The notes under the pieces were generated by a model, which made no database searches, had not been told where the DNA came from, and worked only from the letters and a program-made list of their open reading frames with translations. A stretch of 26,984 nucleotides of DNA from a virus, in IMG/VR virus record IMGVR_UViG_3300047551_003541, positions 1 through 26,984 of that record; one strand, written 5' to 3'. Numbering within the stretch: the first letter of the stretch is position 1; the number at the start of each line of letters is the position of its first letter. Shown here one piece after another: positions 4,630 through 22,729 of this stretch. The translations under genes were made by a program, and so were the position numbers.

Positions 4630-4630
4630 T

Positions 4631-6127
4631 TTATAATCTTCCAAAAGTAGCAAAGTAATCCCTGTTAGTATGCAATACAGCTGCTTCATTACCTAAAGCA
4701 TTTCTTGCATTCATGTGAGATCCACTCATAGATTGTAAAGCTCTTTGTCGCATTGTTACTGCATTTCTAGAGAAAAAAGGTTCAGGATCTTTAGCAAAGT
4801 CAAAGCGATTATGTGCTTCTCCAATTCTTTTAAACCCTTCTCCCATGATACCACTTCCTAAAGAAACTGCAAGCATTGCTGAACCAGCAACTGCAGCAGT
4901 AACAGCTAAACTTCCAATGTTACTAAACGCCATAGCTCCAACTGGAGCTAATGCTGAAGCGCCAAAAATACCTCCGCCAACTCCTGCAAGAAGTGTGTTG
5001 TCAGCGCCAAGCATTTCGGATGCGCCAATCGCTAAAGAACTACCAATTGAATAACCTGCTGATGCAAACACATAACTACCAATGGCTGGAGCAATTAAAC
5101 CCAAACCTCTATCTAAATAAGGTATTGCTTTCATTGACCCAAAACTACCGATTCTAAAAAAAGAATTAGCTTGATATATTTTTGTTTTTTCGTTAATTGG
5201 AGGTCCTGCTTCTTTATTTAAATTATAAATAGAACCTTCAATTGCTTTTAATTCTGCATTATTAATAGTAGCAAGTCTTGCCGATTGATTTTTTTGGTGC
5301 AATAAAATTTCTTGTTGTTTAGCAGCAGGGAGTTTTTGGAACCTTTCAGATTCATTAAATGCTTTATATTTAACTTCTAATTGTTCTGCTTTTCCTTTTA
5401 ATTCCACAGCTTTTGATTCCAGAGTTTTTAATTGTTCTCTTTTTTGAGTTAATTCACCTTTTAAAAATAAAGGGTTTTTAGCATGCAATTTATCTTGATT
5501 TCTATTTCTTAAATAGTTGTCTATTTCAGTTTCTGTAAAACCACCTTGTTGCATGAATTTACTAAGTTTTTTATCGCTTAGATTTCCTACAATGTGTTCT
5601 CTTTGAGATTCTTTTATACCATGTCCGTAAGACAAACTCATGTTTACAGCTTCTCTGAAAACACCTTCCAATCCAGAATCTTCGTATCCAGTATACAAAC
5701 CATATGCAAAACCTAAGGGATTTAAAACTCTAAATAAACCTGGCATTGCAATGTTACCTATGCCCCTTCCAGGAGATAAATTTTCTGTTAAATTCAAAAT
5801 ACTTTTATTTGCCTGTGCAGCGTTAATAGTCTTTCCAAAACCATTTTGATTGTAAATTTTTGGACCATTTGTTGTCATTTTATAAAAATCAATATTTTGA
5901 TTCATACCCTGATTATAAAATACAGGAGCGATAGTGGTACTATTTAAGGTGTTTCCTTGAACGTTCATAGAAGAGAAAATACTAGCGTGTGCTCCTCTAG
6001 ATAGAATCTCTCGAGAACCATATCCTACTCCCATTAAAGCTGTTCCACCAACAAGCATTGAGATCATATCAGCTTTGCTTGTTTCTTTTTCTTTTTTCTG
6101 CTTATATATTTCTGAATAATCTGCCAT
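4631..6127 (-). CDS. Probable virion/ejection-type protein with coiled coil and Gly/Ala-rich membrane-like region
   Basis: 498 aa, with AGGA about eight bases upstream of the ATG, inside the end of the previous gene. There is a hydrophobic stretch at residues 21-36 (MISMLVGGTALMGVGY), a charged Lys/Glu/Gln coiled coil around 225-300, then a long Gly/Ala-rich hydrophobic region at 341-430 with several potential membrane-crossing helices (AGVGGGIFGASALAPVGAMA). The conserved-looking tail contains MRQRALQSMSGSHMNARNALGNEA split over 459-482. No enzyme motif was seen. A helical, coiled-coil and membrane-active protein between TerL and a nuclease giant could be a DNA-ejection or internal core protein. 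I cannot assign a family. Confidence 0.7.
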   Translation of the reverse strand: MADYSEIYKQKKEKETSKADMISMLVGGTALMGVGYGSREILSRGAHASIFSSMNVQGNTLNSTTIAPVFYNQGMNQNIDFYKMTTNGPKIYNQNGFGKTINAAQANKSILNLTENLSPGRGIGNIAMPGLFRVLNPLGFAYGLYTGYEDSGLEGVFREAVNMSLSYGHGIKESQREHIVGNLSDKKLSKFMQQGGFTETEIDNYLRNRNQDKLHAKNPLFLKGELTQKREQLKTLESKAVELKGKAEQLEVKYKAFNESERFQKLPAAKQQEILLHQKNQSARLATINNAELKAIEGSIYNLNKEAGPPINEKTKIYQANSFFRIGSFGSMKAIPYLDRGLGLIAPAIGSYVFASAGYSIGSSLAIGASEMLGADNTLLAGVGGGIFGASALAPVGAMAFSNIGSLAVTAAVAGSAMLAVSLGSGIMGEGFKRIGEAHNRFDFAKDPEPFFSRNAVTMRQRALQSMSGSHMNARNALGNEAAVLHTNRDYFATFGRL

Positions 6128-10968: not shown

Positions 10969-11705
10969 TTCGCATCATCCAAGAGAATTTCATCTTTTAC
11001 AACTATAACATTCTCTTGTGCAATTAATAAAGCTTCTCTAAGTTTTTGAATTTCGCCCAAAACTTTTGAATTTTGATTCTCATTACCCAATCTAGAAACA
11101 AAGTCTGCTTTTGATTTTCTAGTTTCCATTAATTTTTCTAACCAACGTTCTCTTCTTTTTTCTAATTTATCAATTAATTCTAAAAGAGGGTGTAATTTGG
11201 TTTGAGTAGCTACATCGCCATTTTCATTAAAACCAGTAATTTCGGTTAAAAGAAAATCTCTACCAAAACCATTTTTATCACCATTGCTCAAGACAGTAAT
11301 AGAGCGTTGCTTATATAAATCAATTAAAGCTAATTCATTTATAATACTCATCTCTACAGGATTAGAAGGATCTACATCTAAGTACTGCATGTAATTTATA
11401 ATTTGTTGTTCTAAAAAACTTTTCTCTAATACGCAAGACATTCCAACTGGATACTCTTGTAAGTTTGCTTTTTGAATCTTGCCATTTTGATCTATATCAT
11501 TAATTGGACAACTAGCAAAAAAAGGACATTTATCTGGGCCGTTACAAGTCAAAGGAGAAGCGGTATAGACTCCTTGATTCTTAACACTTACTGCAATTTT
11601 AGATTTCTTTTCTTCAGTTAATTTTTCTAAATATTTTTCATATCTAGAATTATTGTTTGATAATTTATTGAAATATTCTAATTGGCGTTCTTCTTTTGAT
11701 ATCAT
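10965..11705 (-). CDS. Cys-rich (putative zinc-binding) protein with coiled coil; possible small terminase
   Basis: 246 aa, first gene of the leftward operon, with AGGGA upstream of the ATG at 11705. Four cysteines (54, 60, 66, 91) in the arrangement TCNGPDKCPFFASCP and YPVGMSCVLE suggest a small zinc or Fe-S knuckle. The second half (about 175-240) is a charged coiled coil (LIDKLEKRRERWLEKLMETRKSK). Being upstream of TerL in the same operon, and ending in a helical oligomerisation-like region, it might be the small terminase or another packaging factor. No diagnostic DNA-binding motif was seen, so this is a guess. The start and stop are well supported, the latter by ATGA overlap with the next gene. 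Confidence 0.7.
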   Translation of the reverse strand: MISKEERQLEYFNKLSNNNSRYEKYLEKLTEEKKSKIAVSVKNQGVYTASPLTCNGPDKCPFFASCPINDIDQNGKIQKANLQEYPVGMSCVLEKSFLEQQIINYMQYLDVDPSNPVEMSIINELALIDLYKQRSITVLSNGDKNGFGRDFLLTEITGFNENGDVATQTKLHPLLELIDKLEKRRERWLEKLMETRKSKADFVSRLGNENQNSKVLGEIQKLREALLIAQENVIVVKDEILLDDAK

Positions 11706-11792: not shown

Positions 11793-11894
11793 CACCCCGG
11801 TCTAGTAATAGTAAAATTGGATAAAGTGTCGATTGAGGGGAGGTAATATATATGTTGCCCAATCAGTTTTCATTCTTTTTTAGCCCACCCCGGT
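11793..11894 (+). repeat. Direct repeat CACCCCGGT(G)CTAG, two copies 93 bp apart
   Basis: The nine-base CACCCCGGT occurs at 11793-11801 and 11886-11894. In both copies it is followed by CTAG, directly in the first and after one extra G in the second. These G+C-rich words stand out in an AT-rich region and flank the leader micro-ORF. They could be operator or activator sites for the divergent promoters. Confidence 0.5.
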
Positions 11895-11899
11895 GCTAG
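11852..11899 (+). CDS. Possible leader micro-ORF (15 aa)
   Basis: ATG TTG CCC ... TAG encodes MLPNQFSFFFSPPRC. It is preceded by GGGGAGG with seven bases of spacing, the strongest Shine-Dalgarno match in the window, which is hard to explain without translation. The ORF ends 56 bases before the 316-aa gene start and overlaps the second CACCCCGGT copy. It may be a leader peptide. A longer frame opening with GTG at 11893 exists but has no suitable ribosome site there. Confidence 0.35.
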   Translation: MLPNQFSFFFSPPRC

Positions 11900-11955
11900 G
11901 TACATTCGGTACCAAGATGAGTGCAACACACCTGTACATAGAAAGGATTTCACAA

Positions 11956-12906
11956 ATGTACTATTTTCTCCTCAACTTTTTAAGTTGTTTCGTTTTCTCG
12001 GAAAAAGAAGCTAAAGTCAATACCTTTGGGTATACCGTTGCTCGTCTTCTTCTTCCTATCTTGTTCTTCTTTCTTTCCATTAAAATTCAGCTGGTTGAAG
12101 TTATTGTTTTAAATGGTTTTTTGCTTATCTATGTAGTGGTTGACCAATGTTCTCTTTTTGTTTCAAAAGATGCTGCAAATTTAAACGACTTTACAAAAAT
12201 GTGTGACTCCTCTATGTCAAAAATTTTAAAAGTTCAATGTTTATTCATGTTTATCGTCCTATTGAATACAGTGGATGCACAAAGCATTACTTGTCCTGAT
12301 GAAATCAATAAATTCTCTAAAAGCACATTCTTCCATGAAGAATTGCTAAGTAAAGAAGAATTAGTTTCTTATTGGAAAGAGAACAAAGGTACGCTTGATG
12401 TTGCCCAAGAAATCTCTCAAGAATTTCTTAATGAACAACATGATCTCAGAGTGTTCTTTTTAAAGAATCCCCAAGTTTGTGTTATAGCTGTTCCTGAACC
12501 CTATATGGGAGCTTTTGAAGCTACCAGGGAGATTACTAGGCTTTTGTGGTCCGTACCACAAGCTTGGTATCATGAAAGAATGCATAGCTGTAAGATTGGC
12601 TTATCTTTCTCCCATGGAGATAAGGATAAACTTAATATTCTTTCTTCCAAGAGAGCAATTAAGGGTGAGGATTCTGCGAGATGGATAGCTGCAGAAGATT
12701 TGAAAAAAGCTTTTCCTCAAATTGATATTCTTCTTATTACCTGTAGAGGTGAGAAATCACCCTCTCATGAAGGTGATTTTATCTTGGATCATCAAACTGC
12801 AATTTGGTGGTCTACAGAAAAAGGAGAAAGTACTCCTAGTAAATGGCTATGGCATGCTCATGAAAACGGAAACCTACAAAGGTTTGTAGACATGTATAGC
12901 TATTAA
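11956..12906 (+). CDS. Unknown protein with N-terminal membrane segments
   Basis: 316 aa from the ATG at 11956, chosen because AAAGGA lies eight bases upstream; an earlier in-frame GTG at 11893 lacks a good site. Residues 1-110 hold several hydrophobic stretches (MYYFLLNFLSCFVF, ARLLLPILFFFLSI, VLNGFLLIYVVV, LFMFIVLLNTV), suggesting a membrane-anchored N-terminus. The remainder, from about SITCPDEINKF, appears soluble and globular with Trp/His-rich stretches (PQAWYHERMHSC, TAIWWSTEKGE, KWLWHAHENG). No catalytic signature was recognised. It is the first gene of the rightward unit, and the first hammerhead ribozyme begins 26 bases after its stop. Confidence 0.7.
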   Translation: MYYFLLNFLSCFVFSEKEAKVNTFGYTVARLLLPILFFFLSIKIQLVEVIVLNGFLLIYVVVDQCSLFVSKDAANLNDFTKMCDSSMSKILKVQCLFMFIVLLNTVDAQSITCPDEINKFSKSTFFHEELLSKEELVSYWKENKGTLDVAQEISQEFLNEQHDLRVFFLKNPQVCVIAVPEPYMGAFEATREITRLLWSVPQAWYHERMHSCKIGLSFSHGDKDKLNILSSKRAIKGEDSARWIAAEDLKKAFPQIDILLITCRGEKSPSHEGDFILDHQTAIWWSTEKGESTPSKWLWHAHENGNLQRFVDMYSY

Positions 12907-12931: not shown

Positions 12932-12984
12932 GAGGTCTGCAGGTAGTGTCCTGTACTGATGAGGCGAATCGAAGCCGAAACCTC
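12932..12984 (+). ncRNA. Hammerhead ribozyme 1 (type III)
   Basis: Stem III is GAGGT (12932-12936) with ACCTC (12980-12984). The cleavage triplet is GTC, so cutting is expected after 12937. Stem I is TGCAGG/CCTGTA (12938-12943/12950-12955) with loop TAGTGT. The core is CTGATGA (12956-12962), stem II is GGC/GCC (12963-12965/12974-12976) with an 8-base loop, and GAAA is at 12977-12980. Every invariant core base is present. It lies between the 316-aa and kinase-like genes with no terminator in between, so it should cut a read-through mRNA. Confidence 0.93.
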
Positions 12985-13038
12985 AAAACTTGTAACCGTC
13001 TAGCTTAAAGACATTAAAGAAAAGCAAAGGATGAAATC

Positions 13039-13683
13039 ATGGATGTTTTGTTTATGAAAAAAGTTTCTGCTATCGATTTAATTGATAGCGTTGAGAAAGC
13101 AAAAAGAATCATTTCTCAACCTTGTACATCTCAGGGGATGTTTAGGGAGGTATGGGTGGGTAATTATGCGGTTTTGAAGAAAGGCAAAGAAGTACCTGGA
13201 GGAGGTTTTGATATCTCTCTTGGGGGAGGAGAGATGAATAGGAGGGAAAATCAAGTGTGGACAAAGTATAACCATCTTAATCTTTTGGCAAAAATTAATT
13301 GGGTATCTACAGATAATTTATATTTGTCCATGGAAAAGTTGAATATGGACGAAGAGAGAAAAAATAAAGCGATTAAAGATCTCTTTGGAGATTTTTGGGT
13401 TGATGAAGGTGATGAGAAAAAATCTGCTGCCAATTGTTTAAACAGGGTGAAGATGGTTCTATGGGCTTTATTAAAAGCCAATTATGATAAGTTGATAGCT
13501 ACTTCCTTGCTTAAGGCAAATCACTTTGATAGAAAAGTGAACTTAGCAAAGGTAGAGTTGAAAAAAGAAATCTATAGGAAGTTATTACAACTTCCCAAAG
13601 ATGTGGTTTGGGATTTGCATTACTCTAATTGGGGGCTGGATCATAAAGGAGAATTGAAAATTCTAGATTATGCAGGTGTTTAA
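13039..13683 (+). CDS. Small protein-kinase-like protein
   Basis: 214 aa from the ATG at 13039, with AGGA eight bases upstream. The order of motifs fits the protein-kinase fold: a strand with a likely ATP-binding lysine in NYAVLKKGKE (Lys47/48), a Glu in MNRRENQVW (Glu70) as the possible helix-C partner, a hinge-like NLYLSMEKLNM (93-103), then the catalytic-loop-like WDLHYSNWG (Asp192, Asn197), and finally KILDYAG (Asp210) as the metal-binding DFG equivalent. The protein stops right after that point, so the activation loop and rest of the C-lobe are missing. This short form resembles small kinase-like proteins seen in phages. It could phosphorylate host or phage proteins or be a degenerate binding module. 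It is flanked on both sides by hammerhead ribozymes. Confidence 0.7.
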   Translation: MDVLFMKKVSAIDLIDSVEKAKRIISQPCTSQGMFREVWVGNYAVLKKGKEVPGGGFDISLGGGEMNRRENQVWTKYNHLNLLAKINWVSTDNLYLSMEKLNMDEERKNKAIKDLFGDFWVDEGDEKKSAANCLNRVKMVLWALLKANYDKLIATSLLKANHFDRKVNLAKVELKKEIYRKLLQLPKDVVWDLHYSNWGLDHKGELKILDYAGV

Positions 13684-13709
13684 AAAGACAAAACAAAACC
13701 TTTAAAGAG

Positions 13710-13765
13710 GAGGTCCGTAGGGTTGTCCCTATGCTGATGAAGGCTTAATTGAGAGCCGAAACCTC
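13710..13765 (+). ncRNA. Hammerhead ribozyme 2 (type III)
   Basis: Stem III is GAGGT/ACCTC (13710-13714/13761-13765), with triplet GTC and cleavage expected after 13715. Stem I is CGTAGGG/CCCTATG (13716-13722/13727-13733) with loop TTGT. The core CTGATGA is at 13734-13740, stem II is GGCT/AGCC (13742-13745/13754-13757), and GAAA is at 13758-13761. It starts 26 bases after the kinase-like gene and ends 24 bases before the next ATG. Its stem III matches ribozyme 1, while the stem I sequence differs but keeps pairing. Confidence 0.93.
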
Positions 13766-13789
13766 AAACTGTAACAAAAGGAGAAAAAC

Positions 13790-14110
13790 ATGAATACAGT
13801 TAAAAAAATCTCAGAAAATTGCTATTTAGTTAGTAACGACGCTGATTGTTACTTAACAGAAGAACCAGCTACTAACCCTGAATTGGGCTGTAGATTGATT
13901 CAAGTGAGTGAGAATTCTTGGAATCAAAGAAAAGGTATTTGGTTCACTACAAACGGAACACCAAAAATTATTTCGTTACCAGATACAGCAATCACTGCTC
14001 TCACAGATGTAAATGGCAATAAATTGTTCTTTTTGCCTTCTGGAGAAAAAGATTTCAGTAATCAAACAGCAAAAATTTCATTCATTTATTTTGATGAAAT
14101 CTTTAATTAA
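13790..14110 (+). CDS. Unknown 106-aa protein
   Basis: A clear ATG at 13790 with GGAG six bases upstream. The protein (MNTVKKISENCYLVSN...) is a mix of short beta-like stretches and polar residues (RKGIWFTTNGTPKIISLP, NGNKLFFLPSGEKDF), with no signal peptide, membrane helix or catalytic motif. It lies alone between ribozymes 2 and 3, so cleavage would release it on an RNA of about 466 nt. No family was recognised. Confidence 0.65.
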   Translation: MNTVKKISENCYLVSNDADCYLTEEPATNPELGCRLIQVSENSWNQRKGIWFTTNGTPKIISLPDTAITALTDVNGNKLFFLPSGEKDFSNQTAKISFIYFDEIFN

Positions 14111-14120
14111 TTCGCTGTTA

Positions 14121-14149
14121 TAAATTATTTAATTTGATTGTTTATCCAA
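14121..14149 (+). promoter_or_regulatory. AT-rich element shared with 21258-21287 (possible promoter)
   Basis: The 15-mer TAAATTATTTAATTT, followed by GATTG-TTTATCCAA, closely matches an element at 21258-21287 (same 15-mer, then TATTTATTTATACAA). Both copies lie just upstream of a type III hammerhead and just downstream of a gene. The similarity extends weakly further 5' (AATTAATTCG versus AATTAGATCG). A phage promoter or shared RNA-processing site is the simplest reading; the role is inference. Confidence 0.4.
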
Positions 14150-14172
14150 TTTTTAAATTCTAGTCAATTATA

Positions 14173-14235
14173 GACAAGATACATAGCGTCCGCTGCTATG
14201 CTGATGAGACCCGATCCGGGGTCGAAATCTGTGTC
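14173..14235 (+). ncRNA. Hammerhead ribozyme 3 (type III, AUA cleavage site)
   Basis: Stem I is CATAGC/GCTATG (14182-14187/14195-14200) with a 7-base loop. The core CTGATGA is at 14201-14207, stem II is GACCC/GGGTC (14208-14212/14219-14223), and GAAA is at 14224-14227. Stem III pairs GACAAGA (14173-14179) with TCTGTGTC (14228-14235) around one bulged G. The cleavage triplet is then ATA, a permitted NUH triplet, and cutting is expected after 14181. The bulged stem III makes it slightly less regular than the others. Confidence 0.85.
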
Positions 14236-14258
14236 TCCATTCCAGTAGTACCGATTAT

Positions 14259-14308
14259 AGAAAATAGAGTTTTTTCACACAACACTCTTTTCCCTTTTTC
14301 TATTTTTT
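14259..14308 (+). other. Long imperfect hairpin in the leader of the 129-aa gene
   Basis: AAAATAG (14261-14267) can pair with CTATTTT (14300-14306), and the inner AGAG (14266-14269) with CTCT (14284-14287) as an alternative. The 3' side is T-rich, so it is terminator-like, but there is no separate U-tail after the stem. It may be a regulatory structure between ribozyme 3 and the gene start. Confidence 0.3.
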
Positions 14309-14323
14309 ATAAACGGTCGAGAT

Positions 14324-14333
14324 GACGAGACGA
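14324..14333 (+). promoter_or_regulatory. GACGAGACGA leader motif, copy 1
   Basis: The 10-mer GACGAGACGA lies 34 bases upstream of the 129-aa start. The same word occurs twice before the polymerase gene (15176-15185, 15191-15200), and the shorter GACGAGAC occurs before the 126-aa gene (22206-22213). Being confined to 5' leaders suggests a protein- or RNA-binding site. Confidence 0.4.
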
Positions 14334-14367
14334 AAAAAAACCAACCATTTAGCACAAGGAGATTAAA

Positions 14368-14757
14368 ATGCTAAAATTTGGAAAAATCAAAAAAGGCAAT
14401 GCCATTATGGCAAGAACAATCAAAGCACAACTCAAGCAAACAAATCAATACGTTTTGTTTTGTCGTCTGATCAACAAGATCAGAAAGAGTGGGATCACCT
14501 GTGTTGAATTAAGCAAGCAAACACCATTGATGTTACAAAGTTTAGTTTCTTTTTGCTCTATGAGCAAGGAAATTGAAAAAGAAGGATTAGATGCTTTGGT
14601 ATTAGCTTTAATGCTAAAGAAAGATCAAGTTTCCTCTTCTCCTTTTTACAAAGGTAGACCAGGTGTAACAGCTATTGCTTCTTTTCAAACAGCAGAATGC
14701 CGTTTTGGAGATTTTTATCTCCATTTTGGTGATCGAGTAGTAATTATTGCTGCTTAG
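14368..14757 (+). CDS. Unknown 129-aa protein
   Basis: ATG at 14368 with AAGGAG seven bases upstream; an internal ATG (residue 14) lacks a site of equal quality. The protein begins basic (MLKFGKIKKGNAIMARTIKAQLKQ), continues with helical hydrophobic stretches (LFCRLINKIRK, LDALVLALMLKK) and ends with a beta-like tail (FGDFYLHFGDRVVIIAA). The basic start could mean nucleic-acid binding, but no recognised motif supports it. It sits between ribozyme 3 and the long leader of the polymerase gene. Confidence 0.6.
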   Translation: MLKFGKIKKGNAIMARTIKAQLKQTNQYVLFCRLINKIRKSGITCVELSKQTPLMLQSLVSFCSMSKEIEKEGLDALVLALMLKKDQVSSSPFYKGRPGVTAIASFQTAECRFGDFYLHFGDRVVIIAA

Positions 14758-14812
14758 AGTCTGTCTGCTGATCCTCCAAACCCCAACCCTAACCAAAGGA
14801 GATAGTCCAGAA

Positions 14813-14869
14813 ATGGTAATCCTAGCACAACAACAAATTTGCAAATTATTGTTGATTGTTGCGTTGTAA
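14813..14869 (+). CDS. Possible leader micro-ORF (18 aa)
   Basis: Encodes MVILAQQQICKLLLIVAL. AAAGGAG lies 11 bases upstream, slightly long spacing. It overlaps the inverted repeat CAACAAATTTG / CAAATTATTGTTG (14830-14853), so ribosome passage could alter folding. The peptide is short and hydrophobic. It could be a leader peptide or chance. Confidence 0.22.
   Translation: MVILAQQQICKLLLIVAL
14830..14853 (+). repeat. Inverted repeat (near-perfect, almost no loop)
   Basis: CAACAAATTTG is followed by its near complement CAAATTATTGTTG, giving about 11 paired bases with a two-base bulge and essentially no loop. It contains the palindrome ATTTGCAAAT; a further AAATTTGCAA copy follows at about 14868. 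It could be a dyad operator or an RNA hairpin. Confidence 0.4.
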
Positions 14870-14928
14870 ATTTGCAAGCGCCCATATTCCTCTTTTCCCT
14901 TTCCCCAACCTTAAACTCAGGAGTTAAC

Positions 14929-14964
14929 ATGCTTAAGCCTAGTTTGGTATCTAGTAAAATTTAG
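14929..14964 (+). CDS. Possible leader micro-ORF (11 aa) ending inside a pseudoknot
   Basis: Encodes MLKPSLVSSKI. AGGAG lies five bases before the ATG, a good site. The last codons lie within the 5' arm of the pseudoknot and the TAG touches its second helix (14964), so translating it would disrupt the structure. This fits a leader-peptide attenuation or translational switch; coding is unproven. Confidence 0.3.
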   Translation: MLKPSLVSSKI

Positions 14965-15003
14965 CAGATTATATGCTAGATACCGTAATGCGTTCAGATC
15001 TGC
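14946..15003 (+). other. Predicted H-type RNA pseudoknot
   Basis: Helix 1 is GGTATCTAG (14946-14954) with CTAGATACC (14976-14984), nine perfect pairs. Its loop contains GCAGAT (14964-14969), which is perfectly complementary to ATCTGC (14998-15003) beyond the helix, giving a 6-bp second helix. Two perfect interlocking helices in 58 bases are unlikely by chance. It precedes a 7-bp hairpin at 15010-15027. It may be a riboswitch-like or protein-binding element of the polymerase leader. Confidence 0.55.
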
Positions 15004-15120
15004 AACCCCAGGTTGACGAATCAACCTCCATTGAAGCCCAGCCTTCCAACCCTTTCCTTTAACTTTATCCCCTCTCTATCTTATGTTTATCTCTAGCCAG
15101 AGCATCATTATATAAGCGCT

Positions 15121-15149
15121 GCCACTGAAAGGTGGTCTGTTCTTTTTTT
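15121..15149 (+). terminator. Weak terminator/attenuator-like hairpin
   Basis: GCCACT-GAAA-GGTGGT forms a 6-bp stem with two G-U pairs and a GNRA tetraloop (15121-15136), followed after six bases by seven Ts. The gap between stem and T-run makes it a poor terminator, so attenuation or a protein-binding role is equally possible. Confidence 0.3.
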
Positions 15150-15175
15150 AAGCGTTTATTATTCCAATTGGCAAC

Positions 15176-15200
15176 GACGAGACGAAATTTGACGAGACGA
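15176..15200 (+). repeat. Tandem GACGAGACGA leader motif (two copies)
   Basis: GACGAGACGA occurs at 15176-15185 and 15191-15200, separated by AATTT, about 40-65 bases before the polymerase ATG. The same word is in the 129-aa leader (14324-14333). Confidence 0.5.
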
Positions 15201-15239
15201 CGTTAAACAAAACACAACACAAAAAAAGGAGATTGCAAA

Positions 15240-18200
15240 ATGTTAAACGCAATCAACAACACACAAAAACCAACTGTAGTATCTACAACAAGCACAACAC
15301 ACACATCAGGAGAAACCGAAATGACAGTTTTTCAATCAATCGTTTTAGCATTCGAAGATGCTAAAACTGCTGCAGAACTCAATGCAAAGGAATCTTTAAT
15401 CAATGCATTAGGCGAAAGAAAAGTAGGAAAGTTAAGAAAAGCTTGGAATCAAGCATTTGTTAAACTCACAACAATTAAAACAGCACAGACACAAGCAACA
15501 ACTGAAACAGCAAGAGTAACAACCCCAGCTATTTCTACAAAATCTCCTCAAGCAATTAAGTTTGCAAAACAAAGAGAAGCTGCTGCTAAGGCTAAGGCTG
15601 ATGCTAAAACTGCTGCTAGACTTGCCAAGGTTATTAAGGCTGCTGAAGTTACACCTGTTGCTCAAACTCCCGATAAATCTTTTGCTCCCAAGGTTCCAAC
15701 TGGTGGTTGGTTCTGTAAGGCAGCATTAGATGCAATGCTCAAAGCTTTTGATTTAGCAATTGATAAAATTGTACTCATCACACAAATCACACAAACACAA
15801 ACCATTGGTAGCCAAAGCACTGCTGAGGCCAACCAATTTCACACTCAACAAGGAGAAGTTAGAAACATGATGACTCCAAATCATTTTTCAATTCCAGATA
15901 CAGAGATGGAAAACACTCTGTTCACAGAACCTGGTTTCAAATCAACTGAAGAAGTATTAAATTGGTTCAAACCAGAATTCAGCTTTGATTTCAATGGTCT
16001 TAAAACCCATGTAAAAGTGATCGATCAAGAGAATCCAGGTCGAGTTAATCTAGGCCAGAGATTAATCACTTTGTCTGATAAGTTAACTCAAAATCAACTA
16101 GTTCGTGCTTTAGTGCATGAACTTGACCATTTGAATTATGGTGATTCAAAAAATCAAGTTGAATTACTCAAGTCATTGGATGAATGTAGAAATCAAAAGA
16201 ATCGTCCAGAGTTCTTAAACGATCAACATGCAGAAGAAGAATTGTGGGTGAGGTATCGTGATTATCTCAGAGGTGATCATACATATCAAGAGTTTTTTAC
16301 TTGGTACGAAAGCACAACAACAACAACAACAACAACCGAGGCCTCAGAAACCTCACAACAAAAGGAGAAGAAGATGCTAAAGACATCAACTTCAATCAAA
16401 AATCAAAAGAAGGCAAGAGCAGCAGACCGAATCATCGATAGTGACTTAACCAACTTGACTGAAGAAATCGTCTTTTTAAAATCGAAAAATGGTATTAGAT
16501 TCATCTCAGATGTTTGTTCTTCGTGGGCAAGCCCTATTAATCAAACAAAGAGAGTGCTTGGTTTAAAAGGGAAGATGGTGAAAGTGTCTTTTAGAGAATT
16601 ATCATTTCTTGAAATGCAAAAAGTTCAGAAGGCTTTAAACGAAGCGGGATGGTTCTTTGTCAGTCAGAATATGATCTGCAGAGAAGAAGATGCAAAGAAA
16701 GTTTTTGCTGCAGCGAAGAAAGTTTTCAAATCTCTAACAGGCTTTGTAAATTACGGTAAAGCATGGTTCACAACACCTTGCAAGCCATCTTTGAATTACG
16801 TTGTAGGTTTGATCAACGAAGAAGAAATCGCCGAACTTACGGGTAATGATGGCAGTGGTTTCTTGACTGCTGGTGTTCATTTTGATTTGATGCAATTCAG
16901 AAGCACTGGCTTGGACGAAGGATTATTTGGAAAAGGGATTGTAACTCATACTAAATTTATCATCAAAGACAATAAAGTTGTCAGCATTGATAGTTTAAAT
17001 TTTGGTGAGAAAGAAACTGGGGACTTCCAGTCCTGGTTGAACAATTCGAACAGCTGTGTTGTTGCAATTGATGGGATTGAATACAAGAAAGCTTTGATGT
17101 TGTGTGGATCAAACTTAAAGGGCATTCTTAAAGATGTTCCTAACGATGATTCTTTTACAGAAGTCGACACTGATTTCTTTAGCTTGATGGCTGGGGATTT
17201 GGATTTGAAACCAGGCAAATTGACGATGCCCAACCAAATCTCCTTTTATGCTGAATTGGATTCAGGAATCATCAACCAGTTGGTTAAGAAGTCTCTTGAT
17301 AAAGCTAAGACTAGTCTTAGGAAACTTGTGCTACTTGAGAATTTAACAGAAGAGGTCATAAGCCTATGCAAGACAAAATTCGACACGAAATATGTTCAGA
17401 TGAGTGATTTAAATATCGCTGCTGATACAGAAACATGTCAAGATCAAGTGATTGAGGGGAGTATGAACTTTGTTTTGGAGGCAGACAAGTTTGAAATAGG
17501 TCAGTTGAGGAAAGAGGTATGGATGGTGAGAACCCCTGTACAGGATCAAAATGCATTGAATTGTATTCCAACCTACAATCCTACAATAGTGCATGATATT
17601 TTGTACATGAGCGAACAAGAGTTGATTGCAAAGCATGATGGATTAGATCAAGAAGAGATTGCAAAAGTCAAAGCGGTATTCAATACTGATAAGAAGAAAT
17701 TGCAATTTAGCGCTATGATTGCGCCCGTGGTGAAAAAGGGCATTATGTGGTTGGATACGAGGGTTCAAGAAATTCTCGTTGGCGATAATGATGGCGACAT
17801 GAACTCTTACAAAGAAAAAGATAAGGATGCAGCGATCGATGATCTTTTCACTAAATCTAAAGCTTACAAAGCCAAAGAAATCATCAAGAAAGAAACAAGC
17901 AAAGCGTTTGTTCTAGATTCTGAGTCCAGTGATGATTGGTGCGATGAGAAATCCCAACAACGCCTTATTACCCCTAATGGCGGTCAGTTGAACGTTGGGG
18001 CAATCAGCAATCTCCAAGTGGCTGTAAGAAGTCAGCTTGGTTTTGACAAATTGCCAGATGTAGTTACCTTTGCAGGTAAAACCATTTCTGGTATCCAACA
18101 GCCAAGTATCGATAGGCAGAAATATAAATATGTCTTGCCTAGCTTGCAACATTGGTATTTGTCAAGGGGACCAGTGAAGATCAATCTAGATGGCAAAGAA

Positions 18201-20729
18201 AAAAGTTTGATCATACCTGGTGTGAGTTGGGTGGCAAAAGGAGAGGCAGAGTTCAAAGGTTTCGATGAAAAGAAACAATGGACAACAGAAGAGTTATCTA
18301 AATGGTTTAAGAAAGCGTTCAATAATTATGATGACTTCTCGGAAGAAGTCATCACCGACATCAAAGGTGAGGGAATTAACGCGTATGATCCTGAAGGTTA
18401 CAACTCATTGGGTTGCCAGGCTTGGGGTCAAAAATTTATTTTAGCTGTGAAGCTGTTGAGTGGCGATTCAGAGTTAGCTAAAGCTTCTTTGGATAATCAA
18501 ATCATGGCAGTTGCGGAGATGATGCAACGATTGGAAGATGAATCAATAGATGAAGAGACCATGAAAGTTTGTGGGATTTGTGAAGAAGAACTAAATGATA
18601 GTTTTTATAGCCTGAAATGGTTGAAGCAAATTCAACATCAAAGTTGTCCTGCGAGTCTAGTTGCTTTGAGAGATAAACTATCAGAGCATTTGGTTTTGGA
18701 AGATTTGTTGGTGGGGATCATTGAGGAATATAAAGCAATCTATAGCAATGGCGTGAATAACACATTGTTAGGATTAGATACTGATGATCAAGAGTCAATT
18801 GTTAAATTTGGAACCCTGTTATCAAAATTGTTTATCTCCCAAAAAGATCAAATAACCCAGCAACTTGAAAATACCAACAGATCAACCCAAAAGCAGCAAG
18901 AACTTTCTACCTTAGGTAGTTGGGTGGCAGCTGCAAATGATTGTGGATTGGAATGGTTAGTCAACATATTGGCTAACAACAAATTAGATACACAGGAAAG
19001 ACAAATTAGGTTGAAGGCCTTTAAAAAAGCTTTAGCCTGGATGATTGCTGATCAAATTCATTGTTACTTCGACGTTGCAGATAAAAAGTTTCTTCCCAAT
19101 GTTAAAAAAGATGATTTGATTATTTTTCTATCAAGCATTGTTAAATTGCTTGATGCCGTTGATGAAGCTGACAGCAATGCTAGCAGTGTTAGCTGGACCA
19201 ATCAATTATTAGTGAATGCTGCTATAACATTCAAGAAAGGAATTAAAGAAAACAAAACAGGTCTCAAGGATTTAGTTGCCAAATTTGAAGCAGATGCTTT
19301 GAAATGTTTAGTCGAATTTATTAGGGATCAACACTTCGGTGAAGATTCAGAGGTTTCGCAGCTTGTTATTGTAAACAGCCATCACTGGAATAAATATAGT
19401 TTTGTGATGAACATAGCCAAAAGACCTGCAAAGGCCTTAGAATTATATACCAGTTATGGTTGGAGTGAAAAGGATTTCAAAGATAGCCTAGTCGATTTGG
19501 TACTAAAAGAGGTTGGAAAGAAGGACAATCGAAAGTTCATAGTTCCTACCAAAGTAACTTATCTCTTGGATAATAAGTGGTGGGGAGATATGGTTAAGGG
19601 TTTAGCAAAGAGTCAAACTGTCAACATTTACTATCGTACTTTGTGCGATGGAAATGGTGATGTTGGCTATGTAGTTGAGGCTCAAACTCAAAAGGCATGG
19701 CTTACATTTACAAATAAATATGCTGACAAATTTGAAGCACTTGCTCCATATGGTCTGTCAGAAGTGATATCAACCACTCAGTTGAATAATCTTTTGATAG
19801 ATAATGAATCAATGGCGGTTAGTATCGAAGAGTCTGATGATGTGGCTTCTGCAAGAAGAACCCTTGCAAAATTTGGAGAGTACGGAGATTTGAAACATTT
19901 AGTTGCTGAAATCATTAGAAATTCCTTAATCATCAAAGGCTATGTGAAAAACTATGATGATTTTGAACAAAGTTTTGTGGCAGTGCCTTATGGGTATTTG
20001 ACAGCAAATGTCAATCACAAAGTTTATTCAACCAACTTTAGAAACGCTATGCATCTCTTGTATAACGTTGAAAAAGCTGGCATCGAGTTGATCAGTGAAA
20101 AAATAGACAGTAAGGATTTCAATGGTGCGTTCGATTTAATGTACCCTGTAGTAATTAGAAAAGGTCTTCTCGATGATTTTGGTATCGATTTAGCTGGCTT
20201 CAAAACCAGAGATGAAATGTCCTTGTTCGATGATGCAAAAGCCAAATCTGCAAAAATTTCTAGTGAGAGGGGTCCTAGACTCATAAAGAAGCAGAAGACG
20301 AACCAGGTATGGACTGATTTTAGAGAACAACAACAAAATCTTTCTTACAAAAAGATGAAGCAAACTGGAATTGATCTCGATGAAAAATTGGCTTATCTAG
20401 GTAATCAATCGCCTATCGATCTTTTCAACACAATTGGTAACAATGAAGATTACCGAGCAAGATTGCTGTTATTGAATAGAGATTTTCTCTTAACAAGAAA
20501 TCTCGAGACAATGCTGAATATCAGCAAACAATTGTCTTCTGGTAAAGGTGATAAAGATCAATTGAGTCAAATCTATGAAAATTGTAAAAACTCTCTCTTA
20601 AAGGAGATCGGAAATCCATCCCTTAAAAAGATGGTGTATTCAGCAATCACAGATCCAGATTCAAACGGCTTAAATGTATTCTCAAAAATAGATTCAAATG
20701 ATCTTATCGATTTAATCTTAAAAGATTAA
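15240..20729 (+). CDS. Divergent double-psi beta-barrel RNA polymerase (RdRp/YonO/crAss-phage-like) with N-terminal HExxH peptidase-like segment
   Basis: 1829 aa, with AAAGGAG before the ATG. The polymerase core shows the hallmarks of single-chain two-barrel RNA polymerases. NDGSGFL (Asp537) followed by QFR (552-554) and GLFGKG (561-566) match the DGxG...QxR...G-KG pattern of cellular RdRps. Then RTP (764-766) and the catalytic DNDGD (Asp849, 851, 853) match the RxP...DxDGD of RNAP beta-prime, and AISN (921-924) corresponds to the lG-IxN-H element about 70 residues after DxDGD. It should synthesise RNA with two metals, probably transcribing phage genes. N-terminal parts are a helical Lys/Ala-rich region (28-150) and a segment with VHELDHLNYGD (His293, Glu294, His297), a zinc-metallopeptidase signature; a possible third ligand lies near 331-335. 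An eight-Thr run joins it to the polymerase. In-frame ATGs with Shine-Dalgarno sites at residues 28, 210 and 379 suggest nested products. The C-terminal 800 residues match nothing I recognise. Confidence 0.82.
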   Translation: MLNAINNTQKPTVVSTTSTTHTSGETEMTVFQSIVLAFEDAKTAAELNAKESLINALGERKVGKLRKAWNQAFVKLTTIKTAQTQATTETARVTTPAISTKSPQAIKFAKQREAAAKAKADAKTAARLAKVIKAAEVTPVAQTPDKSFAPKVPTGGWFCKAALDAMLKAFDLAIDKIVLITQITQTQTIGSQSTAEANQFHTQQGEVRNMMTPNHFSIPDTEMENTLFTEPGFKSTEEVLNWFKPEFSFDFNGLKTHVKVIDQENPGRVNLGQRLITLSDKLTQNQLVRALVHELDHLNYGDSKNQVELLKSLDECRNQKNRPEFLNDQHAEEELWVRYRDYLRGDHTYQEFFTWYESTTTTTTTTEASETSQQKEKKMLKTSTSIKNQKKARAADRIIDSDLTNLTEEIVFLKSKNGIRFISDVCSSWASPINQTKRVLGLKGKMVKVSFRELSFLEMQKVQKALNEAGWFFVSQNMICREEDAKKVFAAAKKVFKSLTGFVNYGKAWFTTPCKPSLNYVVGLINEEEIAELTGNDGSGFLTAGVHFDLMQFRSTGLDEGLFGKGIVTHTKFIIKDNKVVSIDSLNFGEKETGDFQSWLNNSNSCVVAIDGIEYKKALMLCGSNLKGILKDVPNDDSFTEVDTDFFSLMAGDLDLKPGKLTMPNQISFYAELDSGIINQLVKKSLDKAKTSLRKLVLLENLTEEVISLCKTKFDTKYVQMSDLNIAADTETCQDQVIEGSMNFVLEADKFEIGQLRKEVWMVRTPVQDQNALNCIPTYNPTIVHDILYMSEQELIAKHDGLDQEEIAKVKAVFNTDKKKLQFSAMIAPVVKKGIMWLDTRVQEILVGDNDGDMNSYKEKDKDAAIDDLFTKSKAYKAKEIIKKETSKAFVLDSESSDDWCDEKSQQRLITPNGGQLNVGAISNLQVAVRSQLGFDKLPDVVTFAGKTISGIQQPSIDRQKYKYVLPSLQHWYLSRGPVKINLDGKEKSLIIPGVSWVAKGEAEFKGFDEKKQWTTEELSKWFKKAFNNYDDFSEEVITDIKGEGINAYDPEGYNSLGCQAWGQKFILAVKLLSGDSELAKASLDNQIMAVAEMMQRLEDESIDEETMKVCGICEEELNDSFYSLKWLKQIQHQSCPASLVALRDKLSEHLVLEDLLVGIIEEYKAIYSNGVNNTLLGLDTDDQESIVKFGTLLSKLFISQKDQITQQLENTNRSTQKQQELSTLGSWVAAANDCGLEWLVNILANNKLDTQERQIRLKAFKKALAWMIADQIHCYFDVADKKFLPNVKKDDLIIFLSSIVKLLDAVDEADSNASSVSWTNQLLVNAAITFKKGIKENKTGLKDLVAKFEADALKCLVEFIRDQHFGEDSEVSQLVIVNSHHWNKYSFVMNIAKRPAKALELYTSYGWSEKDFKDSLVDLVLKEVGKKDNRKFIVPTKVTYLLDNKWWGDMVKGLAKSQTVNIYYRTLCDGNGDVGYVVEAQTQKAWLTFTNKYADKFEALAPYGLSEVISTTQLNNLLIDNESMAVSIEESDDVASARRTLAKFGEYGDLKHLVAEIIRNSLIIKGYVKNYDDFEQSFVAVPYGYLTANVNHKVYSTNFRNAMHLLYNVEKAGIELISEKIDSKDFNGAFDLMYPVVIRKGLLDDFGIDLAGFKTRDEMSLFDDAKAKSAKISSERGPRLIKKQKTNQVWTDFREQQQNLSYKKMKQTGIDLDEKLAYLGNQSPIDLFNTIGNNEDYRARLLLLNRDFLLTRNLETMLNISKQLSSGKGDKDQLSQIYENCKNSLLKEIGNPSLKKMVYSAITDPDSNGLNVFSKIDSNDLIDLILKD
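16312..16335 (+). repeat. ACA trinucleotide microsatellite encoding a Thr run
   Basis: Eight consecutive ACA/ACC-type codons give an eight-Thr stretch between the peptidase-like and polymerase parts of the 1829-aa ORF. It looks like the CAA/ACA-rich untranslated leaders seen before other genes here (for example just before 15240). Its length may vary by slippage. Confidence 0.7.
16364..16376 (+). promoter_or_regulatory. Internal ribosome-binding site and ATG for the polymerase domain
   Basis: AAAAGGAG (16360-16367) stands six bases before an in-frame ATG at 16374 (residue 379), exactly at the junction between the Thr-rich linker and the polymerase part. Initiation here would give a 1451-aa polymerase without the peptidase-like segment. 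Similar sites lie at 15308-15312 (ATG 15321, residue 28) and 15851-15855 (ATG 15867, residue 210). Confidence 0.45.
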
Positions 20730-20747
20730 CATAAAAAGGAGTCAATC

Positions 20748-20786
20748 ATGACTATTAGAATTAGAAGTCCAACTCATTTGAGTTGA
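20748..20786 (+). CDS. Possible micro-ORF (12 aa) after the polymerase gene
   Basis: Encodes MTIRIRSPTHLS. AAAAGGAG stands six bases before the ATG, an excellent site lying 18 bases after the polymerase stop. It ends 38 bases before the next gene's ATG. It may be a leader peptide or a tiny real gene; the signal is the ribosome site rather than the peptide. Confidence 0.35.
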   Translation: MTIRIRSPTHLS

Positions 20787-20824
20787 TCAATAAAACAAAA
20801 CAAAACAAAAAAAGGACGAAAGAA

Positions 20825-21211
20825 ATGGAAGAATTAAAATACTTCCTTGAATTGCTTGGTAAAGAAAAAGACGAAAACAAGAAAAAATTCTTGCAAAATG
20901 TTGTCAACGATATAATTGCTAACAATCACAAGGAAACAATGGCAAAGATTCAAGCACAGACAGTGACTGCTTTGCCAAATCACAATCATTTAGAGTTAGA
21001 AGGCAGTGCTACTGCAAGTATTACTACTCTAGATCATCATCAGAAGTTTAGAATTACCTTAAAAGGTAATTCCAAAGTAGTAATCGGCAAAGAAGTATTT
21101 CAAAGTACTGCTGAAACTACTAATCAACCACAACCACCAAAAACAGGAGCAAGCAAAATTATCAAATCTGCAATTAAAGCAGAAGATGGTGATATTGATA
21201 TTGATATGTAA
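20825..21211 (+). CDS. Unknown 128-aa protein with acidic tail
   Basis: The start is the ATG at 20825 because AGGA lies eight bases upstream; an upstream in-frame TTG at 20783 lies in the CAAAA-rich leader and overlaps the micro-ORF stop. The N-terminal helix is charged (MEELKYFLELLGKEKDENKKK), the middle is beta-like (LELEGSATASITTL, KFRITLKGNSKVVIG), then comes a Pro/Gln linker and an acidic tail (AEDGDIDIDM). The acidic C-terminus recalls single-stranded DNA-binding or DNA-mimic proteins, but nothing else supports either. No family was recognised. Confidence 0.6.
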   Translation: MEELKYFLELLGKEKDENKKKFLQNVVNDIIANNHKETMAKIQAQTVTALPNHNHLELEGSATASITTLDHHQKFRITLKGNSKVVIGKEVFQSTAETTNQPQPPKTGASKIIKSAIKAEDGDIDIDM

Positions 21212-21257
21212 TTACCAATGCTATTAACTTAAAAATTATAATTAATTAGATCGTTTT

Positions 21258-21287
21258 AAATTATTTAATTTTATTTATTTATACAAC
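21258..21287 (+). promoter_or_regulatory. AT-rich element shared with 14121-14149 (possible promoter)
   Basis: TAAATTATTTAATTT followed by TATTTATTTATACAA; the first 15 bases are identical to the copy before ribozyme 3. Here it ends three bases before stem III of ribozyme 4, so a transcript starting here would begin with the ribozyme. Confidence 0.4.
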
Positions 21288-21290
21288 CGT

Positions 21291-21344
21291 TGTGTATATG
21301 GGTATCTCCCATACTGATGAGGCAAATTGAAGCCGAAACACAAT
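21291..21344 (+). ncRNA. Hammerhead ribozyme 4 (type III, GUA cleavage site)
   Basis: Stem III is TTGTG/CACAA (21291-21295/21340-21344). The triplet GTA puts cleavage after 21297. Stem I is TATGGG/CCCATA (21298-21303/21309-21314) with loop TATCT. The core CTGATGA is at 21315-21321, stem II is GGC/GCC (21322-21324/21333-21335) with an 8-base loop, and GAAA is at 21336-21339. All helices are perfect and all core bases are present. Confidence 0.93.
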
Positions 21345-21408
21345 TTCCATCAGATGTTCCATTGTTTCGATTATAAATGTTCAGCTTTTAAATATATACT
21401 ATTTTGTT

Positions 21409-21434
21409 TTTAGGTGGACTCCGCCTAAAGATTT
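21409..21434 (+). terminator. Hairpin followed by T-run (attenuator candidate)
   Basis: TTTAGGTGG (21409-21417) pairs with CCGCCTAAA (21421-21429) around ACT, giving nine pairs including one G-U, followed by GATTTTTC. It looks like an intrinsic terminator placed inside the leader. The 3' arm GCCTAAA (21423-21429) is also perfectly complementary to TTTAGGC at 21509-21515. Confidence 0.5.
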
Positions 21435-21531
21435 TTCTTGAAGGAAAGGCATTAGAGTATATTTATATAATATTATAACGAAAATGAATATAAAAATCTA
21501 ACAGCCTTTTTAGGCAGAAAGGTTTTTCGTC

Positions 21532-22050
21532 ATGAGCGAGACCAGTATTATTAAAGATGGCAATGCAATTCAAATCGATGCGTTAACAACTGTAGCGGAT
21601 GTTTTGTTAGCAATGCAAGATCCCAAAAATTCAAATGTTATGAATGCTTTAATAGCTCGAATGACAACTTTGAATTCTGAAAGTCAAGCAAAGTTACAAC
21701 AATTAGAGGCTCATGCAAATGCAAAGGAAATTTTAGGATTTCCAGGAATCGTTCAAGTTCCGGCATTACAAGATCCTCAATTTGCTTACAGTGGACCACT
21801 TCATGAAATCAAGTTCAAAAATGCTGGAGAAGTTTTTAATTTCTTCAGTAAGTATGAAAGTTTGCTTTATGAGGAAGGTACTTCTGTTACGGTTTCGTTT
21901 AGAGGTAGAAAACTTGCAGATGGTATTCAAACTGGCGTAAAAGCTGGCAAGACTTCTGTTTTCAGTAAACCTTTCAAAGACAAATTGTATGAAGTTGTTG
22001 ATTCAACATCAATCGACAATAGTGTTCGTAAGATCACTGTTAGAAGATAA
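21532..22050 (+). CDS. Unknown 172-aa protein
   Basis: ATG at 21532 with AAAGG nine bases upstream. The N-terminal half is helical with a short coiled coil (ARMTTLNSESQAKLQQLEAHANAKE). The C-terminal half is a basic beta-rich domain (GTSVTVSFRGRKLADG, KTSVFSKPFKDKLYEVV, SVRKITVRR), which could bind nucleic acid. No membrane segment or catalytic motif was seen. A strong terminator follows immediately, and the whole unit (shared element, ribozyme 4, leader switch, gene, terminator) looks like a self-contained transcription unit. Confidence 0.65.
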   Translation: MSETSIIKDGNAIQIDALTTVADVLLAMQDPKNSNVMNALIARMTTLNSESQAKLQQLEAHANAKEILGFPGIVQVPALQDPQFAYSGPLHEIKFKNAGEVFNFFSKYESLLYEEGTSVTVSFRGRKLADGIQTGVKAGKTSVFSKPFKDKLYEVVDSTSIDNSVRKITVRR

Positions 22051-22070
22051 TTGATAGTTGTCATCTTTAG

Positions 22071-22094
22071 AAGGGAGAGAGATCTCCCTTTTTT
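22071..22094 (+). terminator. Strong intrinsic terminator after the 172-aa gene
   Basis: AAGGGAGA (22071-22078) and TCTCCCTT (22083-22090) form a perfect 8-bp stem with loop GAGA, running into a T-run. It lies 20 bases after the stop codon at 22050, a textbook Rho-independent terminator. Confidence 0.9.
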
Positions 22095-22107
22095 CTCATC
22101 TGTAAAA

Positions 22108-22115
22108 TATAAATA
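22108..22115 (+). promoter_or_regulatory. TATAAATA box just before ribozyme 5 (possible T4-late-type promoter)
   Basis: An exact TATAAATA lies between the terminator and ribozyme 5. This octamer is the consensus -10 element of T4-type late promoters, and start positions about 10 bases downstream would fall at the first base of the ribozyme (22124). A single AT-rich octamer is weak evidence, but the placement is apt. Confidence 0.35.
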
Positions 22116-22123
22116 TACTCATT

Positions 22124-22182
22124 CCAGCTGATGAGCTCCTTGAACAAGAGCGAAACCTAGATTTTAAATTCGACGGTCCTGG
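22124..22182 (+). ncRNA. Hammerhead ribozyme 5 (type I)
   Basis: Stem I is open at its end: CCAG (22124-22127) with CTGG (22179-22182). The core CTGATGA is at 22128-22134, stem II is GCTC/GAGC (22135-22138/22148-22151), and GAAA is at 22152-22155. Stem III starts ACC/GGT (22155-22157/22175-22177) and is closed by a 17-base loop. The triplet is GTC, with cleavage after 22178. Ribozyme 6 has the same architecture with compensated changes in stem I. Confidence 0.88.
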
Positions 22183-22205
22183 TAGTTTTTTGATTTCCAA
22201 AACCA

Positions 22206-22213
22206 GACGAGAC
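22206..22213 (+). promoter_or_regulatory. GACGAGAC leader motif
   Basis: An eight-base version of the GACGAGACGA leader motif, 49 bases before the 126-aa start and downstream of ribozyme 5. It is followed by TCGCAGTGAGACTC. It is listed because the motif recurs only in leaders of this block. Confidence 0.3.
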
Positions 22214-22254
22214 TCGCAGTGAGACTCAGCAACACCTCTCTTAAGGATTTTATT

Positions 22255-22635
22255 ATGTTTGAAGTATTTATTAAAGATAATGAATTGTATCTTGGTTTAA
22301 CAAAACGAGATGTAATTACAAAAGTATTGCCAATGGGTGATATTAGGGAAGAAGGTAAATCTGCTTTAAAAGATGCTTTATTATTATTTACTAATGATAA
22401 TGATGAAATTCGATTAAAGAGAAGTAGATTATGTGATGCAGTATCAAAAGCTATTTTAGAAGATAAAGCAAGTTATGATGATCATTTATGGTTTTATGCA
22501 TTTAATTTGTTTGAGAAGTATAATAGCCGCGAAGTAAGTTACAAAGTCCTGAGCAATTGTAAAGTTTGCAGCCATGATATTACCTTTCTTTATGCAGAAG
22601 AAACAGATGACGTTGAAGTTGTAGAATACAACTAA
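22255..22635 (+). CDS. Unknown 126-aa protein with CxxC
   Basis: The start is the ATG at 22255, with AGGA eight bases upstream; an earlier in-frame GTG at 22219 falls in the ribozyme-processed leader. The protein is acidic and helical, with SNCKVCSHD near residues 101-109 giving a lone CxxC, and ends in a very acidic tail (AEETDDVEVVEYN). The stop codon is one base before stem I of ribozyme 6, so cleavage by ribozymes 5 and 6 would excise an RNA of about 516 nt carrying just this gene. No family was recognised. Confidence 0.65.
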   Translation: MFEVFIKDNELYLGLTKRDVITKVLPMGDIREEGKSALKDALLLFTNDNDEIRLKRSRLCDAVSKAILEDKASYDDHLWFYAFNLFEKYNSREVSYKVLSNCKVCSHDITFLYAEETDDVEVVEYN

Positions 22636-22636
22636 T

Positions 22637-22698
22637 CCAACTGATGAGCTCCTTAAGCAAGAGCGAAACCTAAAGAATTATATTCTTGATGGTCTTGG
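22637..22698 (+). ncRNA. Hammerhead ribozyme 6 (type I)
   Basis: Stem I is CCAA (22637-22640) with TTGG (22695-22698). The core CTGATGA is at 22641-22647, stem II is GCTC/GAGC (22648-22651/22661-22664), and GAAA is at 22665-22668. Stem III is ACC/GGT plus the inner helix AAGAAT/ATTCTT (22673-22678/22682-22687). The triplet is GTC, with cleavage after 22694. Compared with ribozyme 5, stem I changed from CCAG/CTGG to CCAA/TTGG, a covariation that supports function. Confidence 0.92.
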
Positions 22699-22729
22699 TA
22701 GCTTTTTACCATATCCCGGTATTTTTTTT
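22696..22729 (+). terminator. Alternative hairpins with T8 tract after ribozyme 6
   Basis: TGGTA (22696-22700) can pair with TACCA (22707-22711). The same TACC can instead pair with GGTA (22718-22721), which runs directly into eight Ts, a weak terminator-like form. The two folds exclude each other, and the first also competes with stem I of the ribozyme (22695-22698). Confidence 0.4.

Follow-up and report, generated by a model that had tools for sequence, protein, structure and literature searches.

Six hammerhead ribozymes lie on the plus strand of IMG/VR virus record IMGVR_UViG_3300047551_003541, a tailed-phage fragment analysed over its whole length of 26,984 bases (the window), and each of them has the full CUGANGA...GAAA core, three helices and an NUH cleavage site (Table 1). 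They punctuate a gene block on the rightward strand that starts at about 11.9 kilobases (kb); copies 1 to 4 are of type III, copies 5 and 6 of type I. Our analysis confirms all six as real sequence elements for which self-cleavage is predicted. Since these are real intergenic hammerheads on the coding strand, with compensatory pairing and in a syntenic array, it is natural to think of a multi-gene transcript that cleaves itself, and we give a probability of roughly 65% to serial self-cleavage splitting one block transcript into short messenger RNAs (mRNAs) with 5'-OH ends. From structure, covariation, strand, position and conservation, all of which the sequence gives directly, we infer co-transcription, cleavage in the cell and a benefit to the phage.

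In such a scheme the block would be transcribed rightward, probably from a conserved leader near 11837-11896, and the six intergenic hammerheads would cut the nascent RNA into mRNAs of one or few genes. Each downstream mRNA would start with a 5'-OH and the upstream piece would end in a 2',3'-cyclic phosphate. A type III copy would be retained on the downstream mRNA, which would begin flush with the stem I hairpin, and a type I copy would remain attached to the upstream mRNA as a folded tail. The benefit may be that translation and decay of neighbouring cargo genes are uncoupled.

Identity and covariation of the hammerheads

Both strands of the window were scanned with a descriptor combining the core, three helices and the NUH site. 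In its strict form it returned five matches, all at the places listed in Table 1 and none elsewhere on either strand, against a chance level of 0.08 (maximum 1) per 26,984 bases in 100 first-order Markov shuffles. The sixth, copy 2 (core at 13734), is not fully canonical, as it carries one extra A that separates A9 from the first pair of stem II and is detected only once the descriptor permits one inserted base there. For copies 1 to 4 the exact hammerhead secondary structure is the minimum-energy fold; the same holds for copy 5 when folded alone, and the isolated hammerhead fold of copy 6 lies within 0.1 kcal/mol of the minimum. Loop II of the type III copies is mostly 8 nucleotides (nt) long and NAAUUGAN-like; used as a search, a strict type III loop pattern gave zero matches. 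A first-pass annotation of this DNA had already proposed six plus-strand motifs with core, helices and cleavage site, all of which we find, together with their expected cuts: five of these agree with ours (after 12937, 13715, 14181, 22178 and 22694), and the fourth has to be moved to after 21296 from 21297.

That annotation had further held that the helix sequences differ while staying paired, and alignments across the phages bear this out. Double compensatory changes occur in 12 of 14 pairs among twelve type III copies and in 9 of 14 among eight type I copies, with 97.6% and 98.2% of cells paired, respectively, counts taken on alignments that had been fitted to the structure, a procedure that inflates such percentages. 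It is therefore the controls and the held-out matches, not the percentages, that carry the argument: none of 500 shuffles reached the observed level of covariation, and a slid control for type III was also far off. A model built on four type III copies, with seven others held out, recovered 7/7 of the latter in a search of 237 kb (26.5-48 bits, E 6e-5 to 2e-11) and in addition found a new copy in a relative, G001, at 28.8 bits. With some 0.08 matches expected and with the compensatory changes seen, a chance origin of the hammerheads can be ruled out.

The Rfam models, whose search the first-pass annotation had proposed as a check, gave an answer that depends on the threshold. At the gathering cut-offs of 48.5 bits for Hammerhead_3 (RF00008) and 52 bits for Hammerhead_HH9 (RF02275) no hammerhead is reported in the window (0/6) or its relatives; below them 4/6 window copies are listed, two by Hammerhead_3 (36 and 29 bits) and two by HH9 (28.2 and 24.6 bits), with copies 2 and 3 unlisted even there. 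Because the hammerheads of two relatives, G002 and G004, are likewise missed, we take this to mean that the models do not cover this phage group well, and not as evidence against the ribozymes. That Rfam thresholds miss a group of phage hammerheads is of use in itself, as is the finding that the extra core nucleotide follows an activity order known from a viroid. In the 57 phage copies that require an insertion, U is the added nucleotide 44 times, A 9 times and G 4 times, and C never occurs. In the plus-strand hammerhead of the viroid CChMVd cleavage is 3-4-fold faster with an extra U, moderately slower with an A and strongly impaired with C or G, according to PMC3705267, which reports De la Pena and Flores 2001. 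The phage frequencies agree with this order, and by analogy with the viroid the bias supports selection for cleavage; the insertion in copy 2 is a known natural deviation (PMC3705267).

An array kept while its cargo is replaced

A terminase search yielded six related contigs. Other queries added nothing: the 1,829-amino-acid (aa) protein found zero relatives in viral contigs, the 246-aa protein returned only two already known, and a search of a phage collection for near-identical DNA gave none. Two of the contigs, G002 (56.5 kb) and G004 (27.2 kb), span the block and have seven and six hammerheads there, with three or four type III copies ahead of the giant gene and type I copies behind it; the window differs in that a type III copy, the one cutting after 21296, also lies behind the giant gene. 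Across the three phages the flanks are conserved (terminase 74-92%, 246-aa neighbour 69-85% identical), and none of the six cargo proteins of the window matches anything in G002 or G004 (best E 0.6). Near-identical stems are even found in the window copy cutting after 14181 and the G002 copy cutting after 15403, while the genes on either side differ. The ribozymes thus appear to behave as standing punctuation, kept in the same stretch while the intervening genes are replaced.

It might be argued from this same pattern, i.e. ribozymes conserved where the adjoining genes are replaced and a near-identical pair (14181 and G002 15403) between different neighbours, that the hammerheads chiefly serve as joints for recombination or travel as passengers of cargo cassettes and have little effect on regulation. 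The helices, however, vary but stay paired, which argues for selection on structure and not on sequence identity, so to our minds such a role is hardly probable at all. A tentative idea, to which we would give clearly less weight than to transcript splitting itself, is that of a ribozyme-framed cargo locus where hammerheads serve as fixed slot dividers for swapping accessory genes within one operon and, together with the TGACGAGACG leader described below, form a modular expression platform of the lineage. We entertain it because self-cleavage would provide each inserted gene with a separate message, no matter which genes adjoin it.

Among the relatives, and apart from the G001 copy, we find no hammerhead in the remainder of G001, in the remainder of G002 or in G005, and a weak G004 match at 3970 was discounted, as it lies inside an open reading frame (ORF) and has a long loop. 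The best named-phage matches of the window terminase, at 24-30% identity, are MTATph1, ME3 and KLEB27-3 (phages of 177-235 kb); none of these distant relatives has a convincing hammerhead, and the best candidate (ME3, 18.1 bits) is missing the GAAA side and contains disrupted pairs.

We scanned viral contigs twice for hammerhead patterns and obtained 180 stretches, which after removal of duplicates contain 30 loci with at least two hammerheads and 94 ribozymes in total (window, G002 and G004 counted in); as the loci were chosen by hammerhead patterns, these numbers give no measure of hammerhead frequency in phages. In 30/30 clusters all copies are on one strand, and between neighbouring ribozymes a single same-strand ORF is the commonest content (28/64). 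Type I copies start right at the stop codon of the gene upstream (median distance 0 nt), type III copies about 57 nt past it, and both types end about 25 nt ahead of the next start codon. Several other contigs have four to six hammerheads in 10 kb and in one contig six lie within about 5 kb; the window is thus dense in hammerheads, yet not uniquely so. Two statements of the first-pass annotation thereby fall, that hammerheads occur singly in phages and that such density is unusual: they are contradicted by the 30 clusters found here and by clusters, up to a triple, that were reported in 2011 (PMC3088659). As a separate observation, L059, L114, L131 and L189 have 4-6 hammerheads in about 1.4-5 kb and represent another phage group with dense arrays, in which the type I products mostly begin 5'-UUAACCA, about 20 nt ahead of an ATG.

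Leaders, terminator-like hairpins and the number of transcripts

The block leader in Table 1 recurs in G001 at 485-430 (-), in G002 at 14174-14230 and in G004 at 18895-18840 (-), and it likely represents the promoter region. Within this leader, GGGGAGG and CCCACCCC could pair. In G001 the leader, there TTTTTAGCCCACCCCGG, is directly followed by the type III copy mentioned above, at the contig end and about 87 nt ahead of the first gene's ATG. At the corresponding place the window (11890-11960) has a hairpin, GGTAC..GTACC then AAGATGA, possibly a decayed hammerhead copy.

A second element, (CTGTAA)TGACGAGACG(A), is repeated in the leaders of genes of this block, invariably on the coding strand, in all three phages, and is doubled ahead of the giant gene in the window, G002 and G004. 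Beyond the sites in Table 1, variants occur in the window near 22205 and 25459; in G002 the motif is at 15570, 16592, 17465-17485, 24217, 25358, 25373 and 28129, in G004 (-) at 16919, 15932, 15105, 15090, 8746 and 4230, and it is absent from G005, a 50-kb relative. The window contains GACGAGACG four times against 0.03 expected, one of the four being within an unrelated ORF. The element might be a promoter or an RNA-binding site. Were it a promoter, part of the block would consist of separate transcription units, with ribozymes trimming read-through.

This leads to an alternative in which each gene has its own promoter (TGACGAGACG) and the ribozyme, with or without a terminator, acts as an insulator or 3'-end maker that trims read-through from upstream. 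Terminator-like hairpins do sit beside copies 4 and 5 and after the G002 cut at 25277, type I copies start at stop codons, and several genes in all three phages have TGACGAGACG after the ribozyme and ahead of the start codon, on the coding strand only. The promoter role of TGACGAGACG is putative, however, sigma-70-like matches being no more frequent than in shuffles; moreover, the motif is missing from the genes behind copies 1 and 2, and the G001 leader ribozyme has no upstream gene to insulate from. On balance we consider this alternative unlikely. The hairpins at 21406-21438 and 22069-22096 nonetheless leave the first-pass view that the phage uses ribozymes instead of terminators without support. 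Apart from this issue, a GGACTCCGCCT(A/G)AAGA hairpin in a leader behind a hammerhead is common to window 21406-21438 and G002 23729, where the adjacent genes are non-homologous.

In a further alternative the main purpose would be the 5' end itself, namely a 5'-OH (with the flush hairpin of type III) that resists 5'-phosphate-dependent decay, with splitting secondary. In its favour, the G001 copy sits in the 5' leader of a first gene, and the ribozyme of haloviruses HF1/HF2 is placed at a mapped transcript 5' end (PMC3088659). Type I copies speak against this: the first 5 nt of their released ends are paired in 33% of cases versus 28% in shuffles (40 nt), and a helix of at least 5 pairs is present in 33% versus 32%. 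A protective 5' hairpin was accordingly dropped as a general feature of type I products, being about as frequent as in shuffles, though both window copies show one. We therefore hold 5'-end formation as the main purpose to be improbable.

Fragments with 5'-OH and 2',3'-cyclic phosphate ends suit RtcB-type ligases, and eukaryotic retrozymes work by such ligation, which raises the option of circular or ligated RNAs. No RtcB was found in 18 records searched, which are mostly fragments and leave room for a host enzyme, and circular and spliced products were sought by Perreault et al. 2011 and not found (PMC3088659). This option strikes us as very improbable.

Returning to serial self-cleavage of one block transcript, several points besides the inflated pairing percentages count against it. 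Cleavage is a prediction from the sequence, and one G002 copy, with the cut at 25277, carries about 14 inserted nt close to stem II and is possibly dead. The G001 ribozyme precedes a first gene and so cannot separate two genes. Spacing in the window is uneven, with about 7.1 kb separating copies 3 and 4, which enclose three genes (129 aa, 1,829 aa and 131-142 aa). Finally, terminator-like hairpins in the block and the repeated possible-promoter motif suggest more than one transcript, and some ribozymes may therefore act only on read-through RNA. Of the first-pass proposal that serial self-cleavage yields single-gene messages, strand, intergenic position, pairing and synteny favour the self-cleavage part; the single-gene part does not hold for the interval between copies 3 and 4. 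One block with six or seven predicted ribozymes, which stay while the genes change, makes this phage lineage a compact natural test of the role of hammerheads in phages: the expected cut sites are known at single-base resolution, mutant cores are easy to make and expression can be measured gene by gene.

As for the proteins, GDNDGD and QQ.SID.QKY are invariant in the 1,829-aa protein across the three phages. The former is reminiscent of the DxDGD motif of single-chain two-barrel RNA polymerases such as YonO and QDE-1. The protein has zero Pfam or PDB sequence matches and its structure model is poor (predicted local distance difference test, pLDDT, 33.5), and we treat it as no more than a possible single-chain RNA polymerase. 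Outside the block, a 1,612-aa protein (6130-10968, -) matches the staphylococcal-nuclease family of Pfam (SNase) at E 2.6e-16; near its N-terminus it has a DIETLG stretch resembling DnaQ-type exonucleases.

Table 1. Genes, hammerheads and leader or terminator-like elements in the window
Feature	Position	Strand	Remarks
Terminase large subunit	2467..4689	-	phrog_2, E 1.7e-34; identifies tailed phage
246-aa conserved gene	10965..11705	-	divergent neighbour of hammerhead block
Block leader GGGGAGGT..ATATA, ~40 nt, then AGCCCACCCCGG	11837..11896	+	likely promoter region, by motif comparison; ahead of first rightward gene
First block gene, 337 aa from GTG	11893..12906	+	homologous to first G002 block gene, 32%, E 1e-28
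Hammerhead 1	12932..12984	+	type III; predicted cut GUC after 12937
Cargo gene, 214 aa	13039..13683	+	phrog_4301, unknown function
Hammerhead 2	13710..13765	+	type III, core 13734; predicted cut GUC after 13715; held-out match 48 bits
Cargo gene, 106 aa	13790..14110	+	no homologue found
Hammerhead 3	14172..14236	+	type III; predicted cut AUA after 14181; held-out match 26.5 bits
Leader motif TGACGAGACG	14323..14332	+	
Cargo gene, 129 aa	14368..14757	+	no homologue found
Tandem leader motif GACGAGACG, 15-nt period	~15175..15199	+	ahead of giant gene; likewise in G002 and G004
Giant gene, 1,829 aa	15240..20729	+	orthologue in both G002 and G004
Cargo gene, 142 aa (131 aa if read from 20816)	20783..21211	+	
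Hammerhead 4	21289..21344	+	type III; predicted cut GUA after 21296
Terminator-like hairpin + T run	21406..21438	+	contains GGACTCCGCCT; leader behind hammerhead 4
Cargo gene, 172 aa	21532..22050	+	
Terminator-like hairpin, 10 pairs then T run	22069..22096	+	separates 172-aa gene and hammerhead 5
Hammerhead 5	22116..22190	+	type I; predicted cut GUC after 22178
Cargo gene, 138 aa from GTG (126 aa from ATG at 22255)	22219..22635	+	
Hammerhead 6	22631..22706	+	type I; starts at upstream gene's stop codon; predicted cut GUC after 22694

Comparison with known hammerheads

Rfam Hammerhead_3 and HH9 share core, helices and topology with the window copies, all of which score under the gathering cut-offs, and the CUGAUGAGCUCC..GAGCGAAACCUA of the HH9 consensus is common to the type I copies of the window. 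The CChMVd plus-strand hammerhead has its extra nucleotide between A9 and G10.1, as do copy 2 and all four G004 type III copies; it differs in belonging to a viroid RNA that serves rolling-circle replication. HHphage of HF1/HF2 lies just upstream of a phage gene, resembling the G001 leader copy, and differs as a single copy in an archaeal virus (PMC3088659). A 2017 review (PMC6155905) describes the ORFs as small and non-conserved and lists the hammerhead role in phages as an open question.

The closest likeness is to the clustered prophage hammerheads of Perreault et al. 2011 (PMC3088659), which are of mixed type, lie between phage genes, flank single genes or short blocks in Clostridium scindens, Azorhizobium caulinodans and Agrobacterium tumefaciens (a triple), and cleave in vitro, the A. 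tumefaciens triple also in E. coli; operon splitting by hammerheads was already proposed there. In the window, too, coding-strand hammerheads border individual phage genes or small groups of them, and our finding is a larger instance of such clusters; later reports may exist, as our search covered open-licence papers only. The largest cluster named in that text is the triple, compared with six to seven copies here, and ours belong to a tailed phage known from metagenome fragments, with the array position kept across relatives. What the present data would add to the earlier work is thus an array that appears to be kept across a lineage with turnover of its cargo, and a shared leader element.

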